From Syntrophobotulus glycolicus DSM 8271 (GTDB lineage: Bacteria; Bacillota; Desulfitobacteriia; Desulfitobacteriales; Syntrophobotulaceae): a stretch of DNA of 64,000 nucleotides. The notes beneath the pieces were generated by a model that was not told the origin of the DNA, searched no databases, and worked only from the letters and a program-made list of their open reading frames with translations. The stretch covers positions 1,674,001-1,738,000 of the forward strand of contig NC_015172.1 of assembly GCF_000190635.1 (NCBI RefSeq). Direction: 5' to 3'. Below, in pieces: positions 1 to 9,086 of the stretch; positions within the stretch are counted from its first letter, which is position 1; every line of letters begins with the position of its first letter. Position numbers and translations under genes: made by a program.

Positions 1-2
1 TG

Positions 3-413
3 GAAACCGTGCAAAGTGTCTCCAAGACCATGTCTATGCTTCTGGGAGGAATAGCCGGAATCTCCCTGTTGGTCGGCGGGATTGGGATCATGAATATTAT
101 GCTGGTCTCAGTGACGGAAAGAACAAGGGAGATCGGAATCCGTAAAGCAATCGGTGCCAAGGAAAAAGACATTATGCTTCAGTTTCTGACGGAAGCTGTT
201 GTTCTTTGCCTTCTGGGCGGAATGATCGGCATAGGGTTCGGCTATGCCGCCTCCGCACTTGTTTCCAAGTTTTTGAGCATGGGATCGAGTATTTCTGTTT
301 CTTCCATCATCATTGCCTTTTGTTTTTCGGCCTTGATCGGCGTTGTTTTTGGGGTCGTGCCGGCCAGAAAAGCGGCAAAAATGGATCCGATTGATGCTTT
401 GAGATTTGAATAA
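3..413 (+). CDS. MacB-type ABC transporter permease, C-terminal part (5' end outside window)
   Basis: Only the last ~136 codons are in the window; the reading frame is open to the left edge, so this is a gene fragment by window position, not a broken gene. It shows the FtsX/MacB C-terminal membrane domain: the glycine-rich helix ending in [12 protein letters not shown], the conserved cytoplasmic [15 protein letters not shown] segment, two further hydrophobic helices, and the typical end PIDALRFE. It is the membrane subunit of an ABC exporter of the MacB/LolE superfamily; the substrate cannot be read from the sequence. It strongly resembles the complete permease at 22944-24128, so the genome carries at least two such systems. 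The next gene, a secreted wall protein, starts 14 bp downstream and is probably co-transcribed. Confidence 0.9.
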
Positions 414-427
414 GAAGGAGAAAGACA

Positions 428-2008
428 ATGAAAAAAAAGACAATATTTGTATTGTTCATGACTATGCTTTTGGTCATCGCCACGGTGATTCCTCAAACTG
501 CTTTTGCTTCTGAAGAGCTGGATGATATAGAATTTTTGACTTCATCAGATTATCGGCTGACAACAGGGGTCAGCACAACAATTAACTTTAAGCTCTATGA
601 TGATAATGGAGATCTGTTCACAGGAAGTGTTACCGCAATCCTGTACGATTCAGACGGAAAAGGCACATCTTACATGCCATCCGGAAGCTCCGGCTATTAT
701 TCGATCAACAATGTGACAGTAGATGTTGCCGGTGATTACGATTTGGTGGTAGAAAGTTCGGATGGGGATAAGGTTACCGTCCCGATTGAAGTGGCTGATC
801 CGGGCATTGATATTACAGGCTCATTGATCATCAACGACGCAAATCCTTCTCACAAAATTACAATAGAGCTGGGGGATGCGCATGGAGAGGCCATTCGCAG
901 ACAGTCTGTGACGATTGACGGAACCTCGGTTGGAGCGGGAACTCTGAGTCTGACCACAGATTATCTTGGGAAGGCGAGCTTTTCCATGACTCCGACGATG
1001 TTTGGCAATGCCGATATCCTTCTGGAAGGGCATATTATTGGGACGATTCCGGTCGTTAAAGCTTACACGGAAGGAGAGCGGATCGGGGAAAACGGAAAGG
1101 GAAGTGCGGGCCTGTCAGTCGCCGTAGCTGAAGAGGGATGGGAAAGTTCAAGTATTGTCATCTTAACCCGGGATGATATTTTAGCAGATGCAATGGCCGC
1201 TGTCCCACTGTCGAAAAAGTTGGACGCGCCGATATTAATGACGTCCTCAAGCTCGTTGGATTCAGAGGTTCTCTCCAAGATTCAGGAGCTTGGGGCCAGT
1301 CAGGTATTTATTATTGGCGGAGCAGAGGCCATATCCAAAGAGATAGAAGCCAGTCTCAGTTCTTCAGGGCTAACCATCTCCCGTCTAAGTGGAAAAAATC
1401 GATATGATACAGCCGCACAAATCGCGGCCCAGATCGGCAGCGCGGATGTTGTGTATATGACCTATGGTCATGGTGAGGCCGATGCAATGGCGATAAGCTC
1501 ATTCGCCGCCGCACAGGGGTCCCCAATTCTCTTGACAGATCAAGATACCATTCCGGGTGAAACCCTGGCGGCGTTGAAAACAGTCTCTCCCCACAAGATT
1601 ATTCTTATCGGTGGAACGGGAATAATCAGCCCAAATATTGAAAAGCAGCTTGCGGGCAATTATACGGTGGAACGATGGGGCGGTACAGACAGGTATAATA
1701 CGGAGCAGATCATTCTGGAAAACCTGCTCGATAAGCAGTCCGCGCGGCCGGTATACTTTGCTTCAGCATTGGTTGCTTCCAGTGATGTTTCAGGAGGCAA
1801 ACCATTTGGAGACGCCTTGCTGGCGTCCGCGTTAGCAGCAAAGAATAACGGGTTTGTCATCGTTGTTCCGCAAAACACGCTTCCTTCATCAATCCAGTAT
1901 TTCCTGTCCTATAATAAGGGTTATCTGACCAAAGGAACGGTCGTAGGAAGCACCTCCGCAATCAGCCGGGGCCTGCAGGAACAGTTGTCTGCCTTAATAG
2001 AGCATTAA
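428..2008 (+). CDS. Secreted cell-wall-binding protein with CWB2 repeats
   Basis: A 526-residue exported protein. Residues 1-28 form a signal peptide (KKK, long hydrophobic core, cleavage near AFA-S). Residues ~33-210 are beta-rich and look like one or two Ig-like/invasin-like domains. From ~228 to the end there are three cell wall binding 2 repeats (PF04122 type), recognisable by IIGG-type strands, the GKNRYDTA and GGTDRYNTE motifs and repeated DALAA-like helices. In clostridia CWB2 triplets bind anionic wall polymers non-covalently. The ribosome site AAGGAG lies just before ATG 428. It follows the MacB-type permease by 14 bp and ends at a strong terminator, so it is the last gene of that operon. 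Role of the N-terminal part is unknown. Confidence 0.9.
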   Translation: MKKKTIFVLFMTMLLVIATVIPQTAFASEELDDIEFLTSSDYRLTTGVSTTINFKLYDDNGDLFTGSVTAILYDSDGKGTSYMPSGSSGYYSINNVTVDVAGDYDLVVESSDGDKVTVPIEVADPGIDITGSLIINDANPSHKITIELGDAHGEAIRRQSVTIDGTSVGAGTLSLTTDYLGKASFSMTPTMFGNADILLEGHIIGTIPVVKAYTEGERIGENGKGSAGLSVAVAEEGWESSSIVILTRDDILADAMAAVPLSKKLDAPILMTSSSSLDSEVLSKIQELGASQVFIIGGAEAISKEIEASLSSSGLTISRLSGKNRYDTAAQIAAQIGSADVVYMTYGHGEADAMAISSFAAAQGSPILLTDQDTIPGETLAALKTVSPHKIILIGGTGIISPNIEKQLAGNYTVERWGGTDRYNTEQIILENLLDKQSARPVYFASALVASSDVSGGKPFGDALLASALAAKNNGFVIVVPQNTLPSSIQYFLSYNKGYLTKGTVVGSTSAISRGLQEQLSALIEH

Positions 2009-2052
2009 AACAGACAACCCCTTTATCGATTCAACTTTTCTGATTGAACAAG

Positions 2053-2101
2053 AAAAAGAGCTTGCTCAGAAGTCTGAAATGATCTGAAAAAGCTCTTTTT
2101 T
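2053..2101 (+). terminator. Intrinsic terminator after the CWB2 gene
   Basis: AAAAAGAGCT at 2053-2062 pairs with AGCTCTTTTT at 2091-2100, giving a hairpin that ends in a T run. It lies between the CWB2 gene and the next glycosyltransferase gene. Confidence 0.75.
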
Positions 2102-2116
2102 ATCAAAGGAGAGAAC

Positions 2117-3328
2117 GTGTTGAAAAATAAACCGCGTGAAGGGACCATCCTCATCCTGCTGCTTTGTATGGGATTGTGCCTGCGGATCGCCGCCGCCGTC
2201 TCCATCGAAGGATTTAGCTCGGATATCCATCTGTTCAGAAATTGGGCGGGAACTGCGGCGGACAATTTGGGACAATTTTATTTCAAATCTTCCAGTGATT
2301 ATCCGCCGCTTTATATTTATGTCCTCTTTCTGATCGGAAAACTGCTCAGCTTTCCGGCAATTAGTCCCTATACGGTTTTGATCATAAAACTGCCCGCTAT
2401 TCTGGCTGATCTGGCTACCGCGCTGTTCATCTTCAAGGTCGCTTCGAAGTATCACAGCCGGAAAACGGGGATACTGCTGGCGGCGTATTATCTGTTCAAT
2501 CCGGCAGTATGGATTAATTCCAGTCTCTGGGGACAGGTGGATTCGTTTTTCACTCTGCTTATTGTTGCCGCGGTATACCTGCTGACGGAAAAGAAACTCG
2601 GATTTTCGGCGGTTTTCTTTACGGCGGCAGTTTTGATGAAGCCTCAGGGAATCATTTTTCTCCCCGTGCTTTTTTTTGAATTGGTGCGGACAAAAAAGAT
2701 GGGGGATATCCTGAAAGCAATGGTCTCCGCCATCATTACCGCTCTCATCATTATCCTCCCGTTTTCCTTAAACAGGGGTTTGACCTGGATTTATCAGTTA
2801 TTTGCGGGGACTGTCGCCGAATACCCCTATGCTTCGGTCAATGCGTTTAATCTGTACGGCTTGCTGGGCGCAAATTATGTCAATGATGCAAAGACATTAC
2901 TGCTCTTTAGTTATCATAGATGGGGCCTGATCTTGATTGTCCTGACCACATTATTTTCCTGGTTAGTATATATTAAGGGAAACAGCAGGAGATTTGCTTT
3001 TGCCGCCGCAATGCTGCAAATCATGGGTGTTTTCACTTTAGCCACAAGAATGCATGAACGCTATTTGTTTCCGGCAATTGCCCTGGCCGTTTTTGCTTGG
3101 ATTTACCTCAAAGATAAAAGGCTGTTTTTTCTTGCCGGCGGGGTCAGCGTGACAAGCTTTTTCAATACATTTTTTATTCTCTTTCATACAAGCAGGATCA
3201 TGGACTCAAGCGGATATGGCTTTTGGCTCCGGATCATTTCTCTGCTCAATGTTCTTCTCCTGATTTGGGCGGCGAAAACGGTATTTGATTTGGCCCTGAA
3301 CAGGAAAAGCGATGACAATATGTTTTGA
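2117..3328 (+). CDS. GT-C type membrane glycosyltransferase (GT87/DUF2029-like)
   Basis: A 403-residue polytopic protein with about ten hydrophobic helices. Family signs are the acidic site in the first outer loop (GFSSDIHLFRNW), the WGQVDS motif near residue 140, and the MHERYLFP motif near residue 315; these are typical of GT-C enzymes that use polyprenyl-phosphate-linked sugars. It probably transfers a sugar to an envelope acceptor on the outer face of the membrane; sugar and acceptor are unknown. Start is GTG 2117 or the next codon TTG 2120; the site AAAGGAGAG at 2105-2112 is better spaced for 2120. It is followed convergently by galE, 12 bp away, and sits in a glycosylation locus with a GT2 enzyme and GtrA protein. 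Confidence 0.8.
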   Translation: MLKNKPREGTILILLLCMGLCLRIAAAVSIEGFSSDIHLFRNWAGTAADNLGQFYFKSSSDYPPLYIYVLFLIGKLLSFPAISPYTVLIIKLPAILADLATALFIFKVASKYHSRKTGILLAAYYLFNPAVWINSSLWGQVDSFFTLLIVAAVYLLTEKKLGFSAVFFTAAVLMKPQGIIFLPVLFFELVRTKKMGDILKAMVSAIITALIIILPFSLNRGLTWIYQLFAGTVAEYPYASVNAFNLYGLLGANYVNDAKTLLLFSYHRWGLILIVLTTLFSWLVYIKGNSRRFAFAAAMLQIMGVFTLATRMHERYLFPAIALAVFAWIYLKDKRLFFLAGGVSVTSFFNTFFILFHTSRIMDSSGYGFWLRIISLLNVLLLIWAAKTVFDLALNRKSDDNMF

Positions 3329-3340
3329 AAACAGGGTGAT

Positions 3341-4333
3341 TCAATGGGGAAAACCATCCGGATTCTTACGGTGCCAGGCCCAGGCGCTCTCAATGATCTG
3401 ATCTAAAGAGCTGTATCCGGGAGACCAGTTAAACGTGGTTCTTATCTTATCGGCCTCAGCCACCAATTGGGCAGGGTCGCCGGGACGTCGCGGACACTCC
3501 AGGACGGGGATGTTCCGGCCTGTAATTTTACGGGAGGTTTCAATCACTTCCCTGACACTGTGGCCGGATCCTGTTCCTACGTTAAAAACACCGCTGCCGA
3601 CACCTTTCTCCAAAGCCGCTAAGGCCAGAATATGGGCTTTGGCCAGATCAAGCACATGGATATAATCCCTGATACAGGTCCCATCCGGAGTGGGGTAATC
3701 TGTCCCGAAAATACTGATCTGTTCCTGGCGTCCTAAAGCTGTTCGGAGAATCAGGGGAATCAGATGAGTTTCCGGAGTATGGTGTTCACCGAGCGAGCCA
3801 TCAAACAGGGCCCCGGCGGCATTGAAATAGCGAAGAGAGATCCATTCCAGCCCATAGGCTTTTTCCAGCCAGGGGAAGGATTGCTCAATCATCCGTTTGG
3901 AGGCGCCATAAGGATTGACAGGGATTGTCGCGGCAGCTTCGGGAATAGGCACCTGTTCTGGAATACCGTAGGCTGCCGCGGTTGAGGAAAAAATCACCCG
4001 TTTCACGCCCGCGCTGAGCAGGGCACTGATAAAGAGATTTGTTTTGGCAGTATTCTCGTGAAAATACAGGTCGGGTTTTTGCATAGATTCACCAACCAGG
4101 CTGCGGGCGGCAAAATGGATCACAGCATCGATCCCCAGATCTTGGACAATATTGCGGACCAGAAGCCCGTCCGCAATATCCCCTTTAAAGAAAGGCACTT
4201 CGGGAAGAGCCGAGGATAAATGGCCCGTGACCAGACTATCAAGGATGACAGGCCGGTATCCTTCTTCCAACAATAACCTGACGGTATGACTGCCGATATA
4301 CCCGGCGCCCCCGGATACGAGAATCGTTCTCAT
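3341..4333 (-). CDS. galE: UDP-glucose 4-epimerase
   Basis: A 330-residue extended short-chain dehydrogenase. The NAD site is GGAGYIGSH (residues 8-16), the catalytic pair is Tyr142/Lys146 in NPYGASK, with Ser/Thr at 117-118. It interconverts UDP-glucose and UDP-galactose and supplies sugar for wall polymers or glycoproteins. Length is normal for GalE. The start has AAGGATG upstream on the minus strand. It stands alone on the minus strand, facing away from the two-component system, and its likely promoter carries the same phased TTCAG-type repeats as that operon. A related UDP-hexose epimerase is possible, but GalE fits best. Confidence 0.93.
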   Translation of the reverse strand: MRTILVSGGAGYIGSHTVRLLLEEGYRPVILDSLVTGHLSSALPEVPFFKGDIADGLLVRNIVQDLGIDAVIHFAARSLVGESMQKPDLYFHENTAKTNLFISALLSAGVKRVIFSSTAAAYGIPEQVPIPEAAATIPVNPYGASKRMIEQSFPWLEKAYGLEWISLRYFNAAGALFDGSLGEHHTPETHLIPLILRTALGRQEQISIFGTDYPTPDGTCIRDYIHVLDLAKAHILALAALEKGVGSGVFNVGTGSGHSVREVIETSRKITGRNIPVLECPRRPGDPAQLVAEADKIRTTFNWSPGYSSLDQIIESAWAWHRKNPDGFPH

Positions 4334-4408: not shown

Positions 4409-4462
4409 AGTATAAAAGTGATTTCTGAGCGTGCATTGATTGTCTGCTGAAAAAAAGCTGAA
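4409..4462 (-). promoter_or_regulatory. galE promoter with 11-bp phased TTCAG-type repeats
   Basis: On the minus strand TTCAG occurs at 4462-4458 and 4451-4447 (11 bp apart) and CTCAG at 4429-4425 (22 bp further). Ten bases separate the last box from TATACT (4414-4409), a good -10 element. No -35 hexamer is evident, as expected for an activator-dependent promoter. The same arrangement is seen at 4498-4540 and 6880-6955. Confidence 0.55.
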
Positions 4463-4497
4463 GATTTTCGGCATGACGGAAAAACGCTCAGATTTAT

Positions 4498-4540
4498 TTC
4501 AGTGATTATTCAGAACGAATTCAGTATAATATGAAATAAT
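4498..4540 (+). promoter_or_regulatory. Promoter of the two-component operon with three phased TTCAG repeats
   Basis: TTCAG begins at 4498, 4509 and 4520, exactly 11 bp apart on the same face of the helix. Two -10 candidates follow: TATAAT at 4525-4530 and AATAAT at 4535-4540; the second keeps the same 10-base gap from the last box seen at galE and at the GT2 operon. OmpR/PhoP-family regulators typically bind such direct repeats, so autoregulation by the downstream regulator is a reasonable inference. Confidence 0.6.
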
Positions 4541-4548
4541 AGAAAAAA

Positions 4549-4575
4549 GAAAGAAAAAATTTGATTTTTTCTTTC
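4549..4575 (+). other. AT-rich hairpin in the 5' leader of the two-component operon
   Basis: GAAAGAAAAAA at 4549-4559 is the exact inverted complement of TTTTTTCTTTC at 4565-4575. It lies between the promoter and the ribosome site. The T run falls inside the stem, so it may be a weak terminator or a 5' mRNA stabiliser; the sequence does not decide. Confidence 0.45.
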
Positions 4576-4604
4576 TTTCCTTGAATCTTGAAGGAGGCTC
4601 TCAA

Positions 4605-5288
4605 ATGCAAAAATTAAAAGGGATAAAAGTATTGTTGATCGATGATGAGCCGAATATTTTGCAGTTTTTGGAGATGGGCCTGTTAAACGAGGGGTTTGAT
4701 GTCATGACAGCTCAGGATGGGATGTCGGCAATGACGATTGTCAAACAGTTTCAGCCGCATATTGCGATCCTGGATGTCATGATGCCGGGGATGGATGGGT
4801 TTGAAGTATGCAAAATGCTGAAAAAAACGGAGAATACCGCGATTATCATGCTCACGGCAAAGGATGAAGTGGACGATAAGGTGAAAGGGCTTACTCTGGG
4901 AGCGGATGATTATATGGCCAAACCATTTAGTTTTGAGGAGTTGTTGGCCAGAATCCACGCAAGAGTGCGCAACCAGTTTCCCAATCTTCTGGGGGAAGTC
5001 GTCATCGGGCCTTTCCGCATTGATGACAGGCGGAAAGAAATCTTTTATCATCAGGTTGTCCTGGAGCTTTCTCCGACTGAGTACGAGCTGCTTCGTTTTA
5101 TGGTTCTCAATCAAGGACTTGTGTTAAGCAAAACCAAGATTTTAGACAAGGTCTGGGGATATGACTTTGTCGGAGATGAAAACATTGTTGAAGTCTATAT
5201 CCGGTCCTTGCGGGATAAATTGAATGATAAGGAACATAAATTGATCCGAACCCTGCGCGGTTCAGGGTACAGGGTAGATCTGCCATGA
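4605..5288 (+). CDS. OmpR/PhoP-family response regulator
   Basis: A 227-residue DNA-binding regulator. The receiver domain (residues ~7-122) has the complete phosphorylation site: Asp13/Asp14, phospho-acceptor Asp57 in ILDVMMPGMDG, Thr84 and Lys106 in MAKPF. The C-terminal ~130-227 is a winged helix of the OmpR type, with SPTEYELL and LRGSGYRVD motifs. The start at ATG 4605 was chosen because AAGGAGG (4591-4597) is ideally spaced; an upstream TTG at 4581 has no ribosome site. Its last codons overlap the kinase start by four bases, so both proteins are coupled. Its probable targets are the nearby promoters carrying TTCAG boxes phased at 11 bp. Confidence 0.95.
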   Translation: MQKLKGIKVLLIDDEPNILQFLEMGLLNEGFDVMTAQDGMSAMTIVKQFQPHIAILDVMMPGMDGFEVCKMLKKTENTAIIMLTAKDEVDDKVKGLTLGADDYMAKPFSFEELLARIHARVRNQFPNLLGEVVIGPFRIDDRRKEIFYHQVVLELSPTEYELLRFMVLNQGLVLSKTKILDKVWGYDFVGDENIVEVYIRSLRDKLNDKEHKLIRTLRGSGYRVDLP

Positions 5289-6793
5289 GGATGCCCAAGC
5301 CTTTTCAGCGCTTTTTTATTATAAAGTCACTTCGGTTTCAGCTCTTATCCCGCTCCTTGCTCTTAATGGCAATTTTGATGGCGATTATCGGAGTTTTTCA
5401 ATACGTCATCATGAGCGAGTTTATCTATCAGAATAAAGCAGTCAGTATTCAGGAGCAAATGAAAGCCATTTCCCCGGGAGTATGGGATAATCTGATCCTC
5501 AACGCAAAGGATTCCGGCCAAATTATTGGCGACAATAAAAACAATAATTTTCCGATGAAGCCGGACCGGCTGCCTTATTTTATGACCCCCGATTCCACGG
5601 TCGCGTTTGTTGATGCCGAGGGGAACTATTATGTCATTTCCAATTCTACAGCAGATGGCAGGACCCCGCCTCAACTGGATTTGACAACTTATGAAAATAG
5701 TTCTCAGTTTAAGTACGGGAGAGCATATCAGATTGTAAACGGCGGAACGAATTCGGAAGAGTTGGTTGTTTTGCACCCGGTTTTTGAGAGAGGGCAAAGA
5801 ATTGGCACAGTTCAGGTCAGTATGGGGACAGCGCCCTTGAAGGAAATCCTTTATCATATATTAATTGCCTTTTTATCTCTGTCCCTGCTCGCTCTCATCG
5901 CTGGAATACTGGCTTTTATCCCTGTTCTGAGAAAAACCCTGGTCCCTTTGTCCAAGATGGCGGAAACCGTGGAACAGATCAACTCCGGAAACCTGGCTGA
6001 ACGGTTTCCGGTCGAACAAGGTCAGATTGAGATCGACCAATTAGCCGGTTCCTTCAACAGAATGCTGGAAAGGCTGGAACTGTCTTTTAAAGCAGAGCAG
6101 GAGGCCAAAGAGCAGATGCGGAGATTTGTTGCCGATGCTTCCCATGAGCTGAGAACTCCGTTGACTTCTATCCATGGATTTTTAGAAGTGCTTTTAAGGG
6201 GGGCGGTCAACCAGCCGGATAAATTGGAAAAATCCCTCAAAAGCATGCTTACGGAATCTGAGCGCATGAAGAAACTCATTCAGGATCTTCTCCAGCTGGC
6301 CAAGCTGGACCGCACACCCCAGATCGAGCTTAAAGAAGGCAGGTTAGATAATCTGATCAAAGAGATGGAGCCGCAGTTGAAAATGCTGGCCGGACTGAGA
6401 AAAGTCACGATTAATCTTGGATCTGCGTTGAGATGCAGGTTTGATGAGGACAAAATCAAACAGGTGATTCTAAATCTTTTTCAAAATGCTGTTCAGCATA
6501 CGGAAGCAGAAGAGGGCCGGATTGAGCTCAGTCTCAAGGATACTGCCAATGGAGTTGAGATAGAAGTGAAAGACAATGGTCCCGGGATCGCGGCAAAGCA
6601 TCTTCCTTATCTTTTTGACCGGTTCTACAGGTGTGATTCTTCCCGGACCCGTAAACACGGTGGCTCAGGATTGGGCTTATCCATCACAAGATCGATTGTT
6701 GAATTGCACGGCGGAACAATCAAAGTGGCTACGGTTGAAGGGAAAGGAACGGCTTTTCAAGTAGGGCTCCCCCTCAATAAACACTCTCAATAA
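5285..6793 (+). CDS. Sensor histidine kinase (HAMP-HisKA-HATPase)
   Basis: A 502-residue membrane kinase paired with the regulator upstream. Helix 1 is at ~20-42, an extracellular sensing region spans ~43-185, helix 2 is at ~188-212, HAMP follows to ~265, then the HisKA domain with His287 in SHELRTPL, and the HATPase domain with NLFQNAVQH, DNGPGI and GGSGLGLS boxes. It senses an unknown envelope or external signal. The extracellular part is large enough for a dCache/PAS-like fold but I cannot assign a ligand. The final codons LNKHSQ and the stop codon lie in a 13-bp tandem duplication (6773-6798), so the present C-terminus is recently altered. Confidence 0.95.
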   Translation: MRMPKPFQRFFIIKSLRFQLLSRSLLLMAILMAIIGVFQYVIMSEFIYQNKAVSIQEQMKAISPGVWDNLILNAKDSGQIIGDNKNNNFPMKPDRLPYFMTPDSTVAFVDAEGNYYVISNSTADGRTPPQLDLTTYENSSQFKYGRAYQIVNGGTNSEELVVLHPVFERGQRIGTVQVSMGTAPLKEILYHILIAFLSLSLLALIAGILAFIPVLRKTLVPLSKMAETVEQINSGNLAERFPVEQGQIEIDQLAGSFNRMLERLELSFKAEQEAKEQMRRFVADASHELRTPLTSIHGFLEVLLRGAVNQPDKLEKSLKSMLTESERMKKLIQDLLQLAKLDRTPQIELKEGRLDNLIKEMEPQLKMLAGLRKVTINLGSALRCRFDEDKIKQVILNLFQNAVQHTEAEEGRIELSLKDTANGVEIEVKDNGPGIAAKHLPYLFDRFYRCDSSRTRKHGGSGLGLSITRSIVELHGGTIKVATVEGKGTAFQVGLPLNKHSQ

Positions 6794-6798
6794 ACACT
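6773..6798 (+). repeat. 13-bp perfect tandem duplication at the kinase stop codon
   Basis: CTCAATAAACACT is present twice in direct succession (6773-6785 and 6786-6798). The kinase reads through the first copy and uses the TAA of the second. Confidence 0.9.
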
Positions 6799-6828
6799 GT
6801 TCCTCAACCCAAACAGTCAATTTCAGAT

Positions 6829-6870
6829 ATGGCTTTACTTGTTCTCTATATCAGGTAAAGCTATTTTTTT
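6829..6870 (+). terminator. Intrinsic terminator after the two-component operon
   Basis: ATGGCTTTAC near 6829-6838 pairs imperfectly with GTAAAGCTAT near 6855-6864, followed by a run of seven T. Confidence 0.7.
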
Positions 6871-6879
6871 GTCTTCTTT

Positions 6880-6955
6880 TTCAGCGAATTTTCAGGAAAT
6901 CCTAAATAAACTTTCAGGTAAGTTTAAGGAGTCATTCAGAATGACTGGTTATATT
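6880..6955 (+). promoter_or_regulatory. GT2/gtrA operon promoter with phased TTCAG repeats
   Basis: TTCAG begins at 6880, 6891, 6913 and 6935, giving spacings of 11, 22 and 22 bp. Ten bases after the last box lies TATATT (6950-6955), a plausible -10 element. The layout matches the promoters of galE and the two-component system, so the neighbouring response regulator is the likely activator. Confidence 0.55.
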
Positions 6956-7023: not shown

Positions 7024-7974
7024 ATGGAAGAAAATATTCGCTATTCAGTCATCATTCCTGTTTATAACGAAGAAGCCGTGATCAAAGAAACCTATCTGAG
7101 ATTGGTCAAGGTCATGGAATACACCGGTGAAAAATATGAACTGATTTTCGTAAATGACGGAAGCCGTGATCAAACAGCGGCTCTGATCAAAGGCTTCCGG
7201 AATGGGAATGACAGGGTGAAGCTGATCGATTTCTCGCGCAATTTCGGTCATCAGGTCGCGATTACCGCCGGCATGGATTATGCATCAGGTGCGGCCGTAG
7301 TGGTGATTGATGCCGATCTTCAGGACCCTCCGGAGCTGATTGTCAACATGATCGCCAAATGGAAGGAAGGCTATGATGTTGTCTATGCCCAAAGAAGCAA
7401 ACGTAAAGGGGAAACCATTCTCAAAAAACAGACCGCTCATTTTTTCTACCGCGTCCTGCGGGTGTTGACGGAAATAGATATCCCTGTGGATACCGGTGAT
7501 TTCCGCTTGCTTGACCGTAAAGTCTGTGAAGAACTGAAACGAATCCCGGAAAAAAACCGTTTTATGCGCGGTCTGGTCAGTTGGATCGGATTCAAACAGG
7601 CGGCAATAGAATACGAGAGAGATGAACGGCCGGCAGGGGAGACAAAATATTCGTTAAAAAAAATGATCAAACTAAGTATAGATGGAATGACCTCTTTCTC
7701 CTTAAAACCCATAAAACTTGCTTCCTATGCCGGTGCTGTTCTGATCGCGGCCGGCCTGGTCTGTTGTGTTGTTTTTCTGACGCTGAAAGGGAATACCTTT
7801 TCAGCCCCAGGATGGAAACTGGTGATTATCCTCCAGCTGTTTTTGAGCGGGATGCTCCTGACCATGATGGGAATTATGGGAGAATATATCGGTCGCATTT
7901 ATGATGAGGTCCGGCATCGTCCGCTCTATATTGTCAGTGAGTGCTATGGACTGAAAAAAAGAGAGGAGGAGTGA
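7024..7974 (+). CDS. Polyprenyl-phosphate glycosyltransferase, GT2 (DPM1/GtrB-like)
   Basis: A 316-residue membrane-anchored GT2 enzyme. The N-terminal ~230 residues have the GT-A fold: SVIIPVYNEE start, NDGSRD, and the DADLQDPPEL metal-binding segment near residue 96. Two helices at ~237-258 and ~265-290 anchor it. The family moves a sugar from UDP/GDP-sugar to undecaprenyl phosphate on the inner leaflet. A GtrA-type protein starts six bases downstream and probably flips the lipid-linked sugar, and a GT-C enzyme (2117-3328) could then use it outside. The ribosome site AGAAGGAGG precedes ATG 7024. Sugar identity is not readable; galactose or glucose is suggested only by the nearby galE. Confidence 0.92.
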   Translation: MEENIRYSVIIPVYNEEAVIKETYLRLVKVMEYTGEKYELIFVNDGSRDQTAALIKGFRNGNDRVKLIDFSRNFGHQVAITAGMDYASGAAVVVIDADLQDPPELIVNMIAKWKEGYDVVYAQRSKRKGETILKKQTAHFFYRVLRVLTEIDIPVDTGDFRLLDRKVCEELKRIPEKNRFMRGLVSWIGFKQAAIEYERDERPAGETKYSLKKMIKLSIDGMTSFSLKPIKLASYAGAVLIAAGLVCCVVFLTLKGNTFSAPGWKLVIILQLFLSGMLLTMMGIMGEYIGRIYDEVRHRPLYIVSECYGLKKREEE

Positions 7975-7979
7975 AAGAT

Positions 7980-8381
7980 ATGCCGGCTAAGATTCAACAT
8001 TACGCGAAATTCCTCAAGTACTGCCTGGTAGGGGGCGTGAATACAGCGGTTGATCTGATTCTTTTCTTTCTGCTCTCTCTGATCGGGGCTCCTTTGCTCA
8101 TTGCGCAATGCGTAGGGTATTCAGGCGGTTTCTTCAATAGCTTTATATTGAATCGAAAATGGACCTTTCAGACATATGGTCCGTCAGGAAGGCAATTCAT
8201 CCGGTTTATCGGACTCAACCTGTTTACTCTAGCCTTGACTTACGGGGCAATTGTCGGGCTCCATGACCAGCTGCAATGGCCGCTTATGATCAGTAAAATC
8301 ATTTCAACTGTTTTATGTACGGGGATCAATTACACCGGCAGCCGTTTATGGGTGTTTTCTGATCCGGCGGCAAGCATATAA
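7980..8381 (+). CDS. GtrA-family membrane protein
   Basis: A 133-residue protein with four hydrophobic helices and the GtrA signature: FLKYCLVGGVNT at the start, FFNSFILNRKWTF in the middle and a final NYTGSRLWVF. GtrA proteins are thought to move polyprenyl-phosphate sugars across the membrane for O-antigen, wall acid or arabinogalactan modification. ATG 7980 was chosen because GAGGAGG lies upstream; an upstream in-frame ATG at 7941 would add 13 hydrophilic residues overlapping the GT2 gene. Co-transcribed with the GT2 enzyme, its expected partner. Confidence 0.9.
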   Translation: MPAKIQHYAKFLKYCLVGGVNTAVDLILFFLLSLIGAPLLIAQCVGYSGGFFNSFILNRKWTFQTYGPSGRQFIRFIGLNLFTLALTYGAIVGLHDQLQWPLMISKIISTVLCTGINYTGSRLWVFSDPAASI

Positions 8382-8411
8382 ATCATGATGAAGAAAAGAA
8401 GGGCTGGGAAA

Positions 8412-9086
8412 ATGAAAATATTGTTCATTAAGAATGAAATGGGAAGTCGGAAAAAAATATTCGCTGTGTTGAGAAAAGAAGGGTACACGGTTGAGGCTGC
8501 CTATGATGAAGAGTCAGGCTTCAGTAAAGCGGCAGCCGGTGATTTTGATGTTATTGTTTTATATTTGCACAGTCCGAATGAAGACAGGGTTGCTTTTATC
8601 AGGGACCTCCGTGACCTGGGAATTTCCACTCCATTAATTGTTTTAGGTGATGATGGTCATTCAGGAGACAAGGTGGCCGTCTTAGATGCCGGTGCGGATG
8701 ATTGTCTGGTTACCCCCTTGGATATGGATGAATTTATGGCCAGATTAAGGGTACTCTCAAGAAGAAGAAATCAAGCCATAATCGAAAATAAACTTGAAGC
8801 GGCAGGACTGGTTTTAGACCCTTTAAAATGTGTGGTCATGAAAAAAAATCAGACGATCAAATTAAGTTTAAAAGAAACCTTGCTGCTTGAAATCTTAATG
8901 CGCAATACCGGGAAAGTGGTGACCAGAGAACAGCTCTTTGATCGTGTCTGGGGTTATTGTTCTAAAAATGAGCTTTCCAATGTTGATTTATACGTGTATT
9001 ATTTGAGAAAGAAATTGAGCAAAACATCGATCGGGACTGTACGTGGGATTGGGTATTTCTTTGAACAGAATCTTGATGCCGTATAA
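8412..9086 (+). CDS. Atypical OmpR-family response regulator with degenerate receiver
   Basis: A 224-residue protein with receiver (1-118) plus OmpR winged helix (~128-220, ending in VRGIGYFFE). The receiver has lost all canonical phosphorylation residues: the acidic pair is Lys7-Asn8, the phospho-acceptor position is Tyr51 (VIVLYLHSP instead of ..LDLMLP), the conserved Thr is Gly79 and the conserved Lys is Thr101. It therefore should not be phosphorylated in the normal way and may act constitutively or through ligand or partner binding, as known for atypical regulators. No kinase is adjacent. Start 8412 was preferred for the upstream AAGGG; ATG 8385 lacks a ribosome site. It follows gtrA by 30 bp and precedes a CheV-type gene. 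Confidence 0.88.
   Translation: MKILFIKNEMGSRKKIFAVLRKEGYTVEAAYDEESGFSKAAAGDFDVIVLYLHSPNEDRVAFIRDLRDLGISTPLIVLGDDGHSGDKVAVLDAGADDCLVTPLDMDEFMARLRVLSRRRNQAIIENKLEAAGLVLDPLKCVVMKKNQTIKLSLKETLLLEILMRNTGKVVTREQLFDRVWGYCSKNELSNVDLYVYYLRKKLSKTSIGTVRGIGYFFEQNLDAV

Follow-up and report, generated by a model that had tools for sequence, protein, structure and literature searches.

In Syntrophobotulus glycolicus, a set of promoters is preceded by four to six (T)TTCAG units that recur with an 11-bp period, the last unit lying 10 nt before the -10 box. Judging from the sequences compared here, it is highly likely that these arrays are the operators of the OmpR/PhoB-type response regulator encoded at 4605..5288 (+ strand) of the window (the whole 64-kb stretch of DNA that was analysed), that the regulator binds them in tandem, and that binding activates envelope promoters lacking a -35 box. 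The original prediction, of a local glycosylation regulon under the control of this regulator, is right in kind and too narrow in scope.

Three promoters in the window carry such arrays. Ahead of the two-component system (TCS) operon, four units (CTCAG/TTCAG/TTCAG/TTCAG) occupy 4487..4524 of the + strand, with starts at 4487, 4498, 4509, and 4520, and the -10 box AATAAT follows at 4535..4540. On the - strand, the galE array (4425..4462, read from 4462) consists of TTCAG/TTCAG/ATCAA/CTCAG, a unit pattern repeated ahead of galE in locus L248 of a relative, and precedes the -10 box TATACT at 4409..4414. The GT2-gtrA operon, on the + strand, has six units (TTCAG/TTCAG/CTAAA/TTCAG/TTAAG/TTCAG, 6880..6939) and the -10 box TATATT at 6950..6955. 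Every repeat first placed at these promoters lies where it was said to lie, and the spacing between the last repeat and the -10 box is exactly 10 nt at all three, as claimed. The unit number had been undercounted: the full in-phase arrays comprise four (TCS), four (galE), and six (GT2-gtrA) units. No -35 partner can be recognised for any of the three -10 boxes. The assignment of the TCS -10 box, while backed in position by relatives, is uncertain because a second candidate, TATAAT, sits immediately after the last unit. Scanning the 64 kb for four units (at least 16/20) plus a -10 box (at least 5/6) returns exactly these three sites, in agreement with the earlier by-eye impression that no similar phased array exists elsewhere in the window. 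The same scan of the window returns no site at other periods (7 to 15 bp) or other gaps (5 to 15 nt), and none in 200 dinucleotide shuffles; phased repeats are thus not equally frequent in shuffled sequence.

The regulator gene is followed by that of a membrane sensor histidine kinase (HAMP, HisKA, HATPase_c; 5285..6793, +), whose predicted structure is of low confidence (mean pLDDT 66.8) and was left out of the conclusions. On one side lies galE (3341..4333, -), a UDP-glucose 4-epimerase gene with a TIGR01179 match above that model's cutoff. On the other side lie genes for a polyprenyl-phosphate-type GT2 glycosyltransferase (7024..7974, +; PgfS-like, below the equivalog cutoff), a GtrA-family membrane protein (7980..8381, +; PF04138), and an orphan OmpR-type regulator (8385..9086, +) that, from its spacing, probably closes the GT2-gtrA operon. 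In relatives, arrays also precede an orphan response regulator that has galE in its vicinity. Regulators similar to that at 8385-9086 have arrays of their own (L202, L226, L232), and these lie near galE, which suggests a regulatory cascade. The beginning of the window (1..3328, +) holds the end of a presumed macA-macB operon, whose array is located outside the window, upstream of it, at genome position 1670717. From spacing and orientation only, this operon appears to continue from macA via an ABC ATPase and permease (permease C-terminus, 9-413, +) into the genes for a CWB2 surface protein (428-2008, +) and a GT-C-like protein (2117-3328, +).

In the mechanism that we propose, the kinase would sense a cell-envelope condition and phosphorylate the regulator. 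Each unit would be occupied by one regulator monomer, and the monomers would line up head to tail along a single face of the helix, like Mycobacterium tuberculosis PhoP on TCACAGC-N4-TCACAGC. The subunits nearest the promoter would stand in for the absent -35 box and bring in RNA polymerase, as in class-II activation. The regulator would thereby turn on its own operon; the GT2-gtrA operon, galE, and a GT39-like transferase, all for lipid-linked sugar transfer; and MacAB efflux, surface proteins, and probably a short RNA. Repeats near a -10 box can exclude polymerase too, and the regulator could instead repress these promoters, or activate or repress depending on the promoter. We regard this as unlikely. 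The three -10 boxes lack a -35 partner, a loss that autoregulation by a repressor would leave unexplained, and CiaR-activated promoters share the geometry, with exactly 10 nt between the last repeat and the -10 box (PMC3091779).

The original naming of the regulator at 4605 as controller stands in that it is the likely binder: array presence tracks the kinase, the recognition helix is nearly invariant, and the TCS array is conserved. The scope then given to its control was too small. The protein matches PF00072 (Response_reg, the receiver) and PF00486 (Trans_reg_C, a winged helix) above cutoff, its recognition helix reads NIVEVYIRSLR[DE]K in 36 of 37 orthologs, and in-phase direct repeats upstream of a -10 box are present at its own promoter and conserved in orthologs. 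For NCBIfam models of named regulators (PhoB, MtrA, YycF/WalR, CreB, PmrA, VanR), the best 25 scores all fall below cutoff; the highest is 205.9 bits, versus a PhoB cutoff of 296.2. The closest solved structure is that of M. tuberculosis PhoP. In PhoP, Asn212, Val213, Glu215, Ser216, Tyr217, and Tyr220 read TCACAGC; Asn212 and Glu215 contact the CAG part, and Ser216 and Tyr220 contact A6 and C5 (PMC4832192). On TCACAGC repeats with an 11-bp period, PhoP forms a tandem dimer that can be extended to tetramers (PMC4832192). The window regulator keeps N, E, and Y (212, 215, and 217), carries the conservative change V213I, and is altered at S216V and Y220S. Only CAG is common to the window motif and TCACAGC, and the changed residues 216 and 220 are predicted to face the bases at which the motifs differ (TTCAG versus CACAG).

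Could another protein of the same genome be the main binder, leaving the window regulator as a bystander? The candidate is a regulator at 476 kb that is transcribed divergently from a VTC-domain operon. It is the only other aligned OmpR-type regulator of the genome that keeps N-x-x-E-x-Y, and its divergent promoter is flanked on either side by two-unit TTCAG repeats that keep the 10-nt gap, as is that of its one ortholog. We consider this very improbable, as the 476-kb regulator is found in only 2 of the 74 genomes of the order, one of which has no four-unit array, whereas arrays occur in 41 genomes. A regulator present in 2/74 genomes cannot therefore own the arrays, and it was rejected as their owner, being missing from nearly all array-bearing genomes. 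We note that this regulator (L004:1380-1600, genome 476.7-476.9 kb; L323) has a similar helix, NNVEAYISFLRKK, and a promoter divergent with a VTC/DUF4956 operon. Cross-talk between it and the window regulator is possible.

With the window regulator as the probable binder, the extent of its regulon can be asked of the entire genome (3,406,739 bp, a single contig). Exact TTCAG-N6-TTCAG has 28 matches genome-wide; two units are not specific, because about half of these matches fall inside genes. Most of the intergenic matches belong to arrays obeying the 10-nt rule, and it is four units plus the -10 box that confer specificity. A search with two mismatches for two units plus a -10 box was discarded as swamped by chance (153 matches versus 73 in the reversed control). 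The sequence model R2 was derived from 40 sites, all of them in other species and none in the S. glycolicus genome. In the R2 search of this genome, seven promoters rank on top, including the three in the window, and the next new place has an E value of 0.03. The seven are those of macA (genome 1670717), an RNA-like locus with an apparent ~60-nt RNA gene (471542), the TCS (1678488), a lipoprotein (1669961), GT2-gtrA (1680880), galE (1678409), and a PMT_2/GT39-like transferase (2542400). At the last of these (L024), the final unit is, in the better reading, degenerate (TTTAT), and TATATT follows after 10 nt; the L024 row stands shifted in A2 relative to this reading, and R2 is unaffected because it has no site of this genome. 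Five of the seven promoters cluster in an 11-kb region around the TCS. Contrary to what had been proposed, the regulon is not local: at least four more such promoters exist in the genome, two of which lie 3-4 kb beyond the upstream edge of the window.

Comparison of the promoters in relatives, suggested together with the original prediction, shows that the autoregulatory TCS array is conserved and that the six-unit pattern recurs downstream of the kinase. Specifically, nearly all orthologous TCS promoters in the order have four units, 10 nt, and a NATAAT-like -10 box, and the promoter 3' of the kinase often has six units, with units 3 and 5 degenerate as in the window. Kinase orthologs also occur in Cohnella and Paenibacillus (50-59% identity), where an array stands ahead of the TCS in 7/7 loci; at five Cohnella loci (L059, L060, L062-L064), an additional array faces a divergent macA-macB operon. 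Among the 74 genomes of the order, R2 matches are found in 38/38 kinase-positive and 3/36 kinase-negative genomes, a co-occurrence that is partly built in, because the autoregulatory array by itself suffices to score a kinase-positive genome as positive and because R2 was trained on kinase-positive genomes. Many genomes carry 5-15 arrays, i.e., beyond the autoregulatory one, and the three kinase-negative genomes with arrays are incomplete (67-82% completeness). Across 299 genomes of the phylum, matches occur in 13/18 kinase-positive and 1/281 kinase-negative genomes; outside the order, the counts are 8/13 versus 1/277. Five of the 18 have no model match at E 1e-4; arrays are present close to the kinase in three of these (L265, L270, L273), whereas the other two (L272, L275) have weak arrays or none. 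A model-independent pattern search gives nearly the same co-occurrence, with no reversed-control match in 74 genomes. TTCAG arrays are thus almost restricted to genomes with this kinase-regulator pair. The intragenic half of the 28 two-unit matches is what a chance or compositional origin of phased TTCAG runs has in its favor, and that origin, which we give practically no credence, is refuted by the shuffles and the reversed-control search, the empty scans at every other period and gap, and the conservation across species of arrays whose degeneracy is specific to particular units.

Arrays precede at least seven promoters in the S. glycolicus genome and up to 15 in relatives. The glycosylation targets initially proposed hold (galE, GT2-gtrA, and also the GT39-like transferase); the restriction to glycosylation does not. 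Arrays also reach macAB/RND efflux, surface and secreted proteins, VTC/DUF4956 operons, DUF4405 membrane proteins, and a second response regulator. Specifically, in relatives they stand ahead of the TCS, GT39-like transferases, VTC/DUF4956 operons, DUF4405 membrane proteins, MacA/RND adaptors (one with an AcrB-type pump), and CWB2 and other secreted proteins. Given these predicted targets, the name "envelope regulon" fits better than "glycosylation regulon."

Several known systems resemble this one. CreBC uses TTCAC direct repeats. OmpR/PhoB regulators such as PhoB and PmrA bind direct repeats about one helical turn apart (PMC4832192). CreBC, PhoB, and PmrA share that spacing with the window system; however, the half-site differs, and the window regulator scores below the NCBIfam CreB, PhoB, and PmrA cutoffs. 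M. tuberculosis PhoP has the 11-bp period and the CAG core in common with it and binds tandemly and cooperatively, up to tetramers with more repeats (PMC4832192), but the bases ahead of CAG, residues 216 and 220, and the targets are different. As in the protein-glycosylation system of Streptococcus mutans, a PgfS-like GT2 lies beside an epimerase and GT-C-type membrane transferases; unlike there, the GT2 falls below the PgfS equivalog cutoff, and GtrA is present. A close parallel in promoter layout is the streptococcal CiaRH regulon, which has TTTAAG-N5-TTTAAG repeats and in which CiaR promoters drive csRNAs (PMC3091779); these small RNAs, from the same promoters, are 51-202 nt long. Both systems have 11-bp direct repeats with exactly 10 nt to the -10 box (PMC3091779) and envelope-related targets. 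Short RNAs with anti-SD segments, transcribed from the same promoters, are a CiaRH trait (PMC8186281) that is only predicted here. In contrast to CiaRH, the half-site is TTCAG, TTAAG being merely a minority unit, and four to six units are present rather than two. The CiaR helix VVEVYVSKVRKKL (PMC3091779) and that of the window regulator, NIVEVYIRSLRDK, mark them as different regulators.

The RNA parallel is predicted from arrays that lead into a terminator. Of the 108 distinct arrays, 12 are followed by an intrinsic terminator before any ORF with a ribosome-binding site begins, and the predicted RNAs are not all independent cases, because L200/L205/L213 and L184/L204 are homologous. A thirteenth listed array, L216, was set aside (terminator at 339 nt, no pyrimidine bias). 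The 30 nt before the stem are a median of 81% pyrimidine, and several of these segments contain CCTCC; the corresponding pyrimidine content at 196 other sites resembling terminators is 47% (p about 1e-7). In S. glycolicus, the array at genome 471542 begins 1 nt past a stop codon and is followed by the -10 box TATCAT and, about 45 nt past it, by the hairpin ACCCGGAATAAGCTCCGGGT and a T run. No ORF lies between array/-10 and intrinsic terminator at this locus (L123:1502-1624, genome 471542-471664), and a pyrimidine-rich RNA of ~60 nt is predicted; it is only a prediction because the terminator may belong to the upstream gene as well. Similar arrangements occur in relatives (L195, L196, L198, L200, L205, L213, L319), and an Rfam search of the RNA candidates returned no family. 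Downstream of the array in L185, L184, and L204, a conserved hydrophobic ORF of ~28 aa (MTLIITLLL[IV]GM[IV]P...) stands ahead of a CU-rich terminator; it may encode a small membrane peptide of the regulon. It is plausible, if somewhat short of probable, that the regulator is an independent CiaR counterpart in anaerobic Clostridia that drives short CU-rich RNAs with anti-Shine-Dalgarno-like segments.

In the literature searched, which left most subscription journals outside its scope, we found no earlier description of the TTCAG motif or the regulator. The regulon and half-site are new, the type of mechanism is already known, and an RNA arm is possible. An unnamed sensor-regulator pair of scattered Firmicutes (Cohnella, Paenibacillus, relatives of S. 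glycolicus) thus gains a probable motif, a promoter rule, and a target set; with motif and rule assigned, targets become predictable in any carrier of the pair. Two regulators of one genome, with helices sharing N-x-x-E-x-Y and both behind TTCAG repeats, offer a direct test of how the family reads DNA. If the regulator is such a CiaR counterpart, one signal would couple envelope-gene transcription to post-transcriptional control, with the ~60-nt transcript at genome 471.6 kb as the S. glycolicus RNA. Should the short RNAs exist, RNA control of the CiaR kind would have more than one evolutionary origin.
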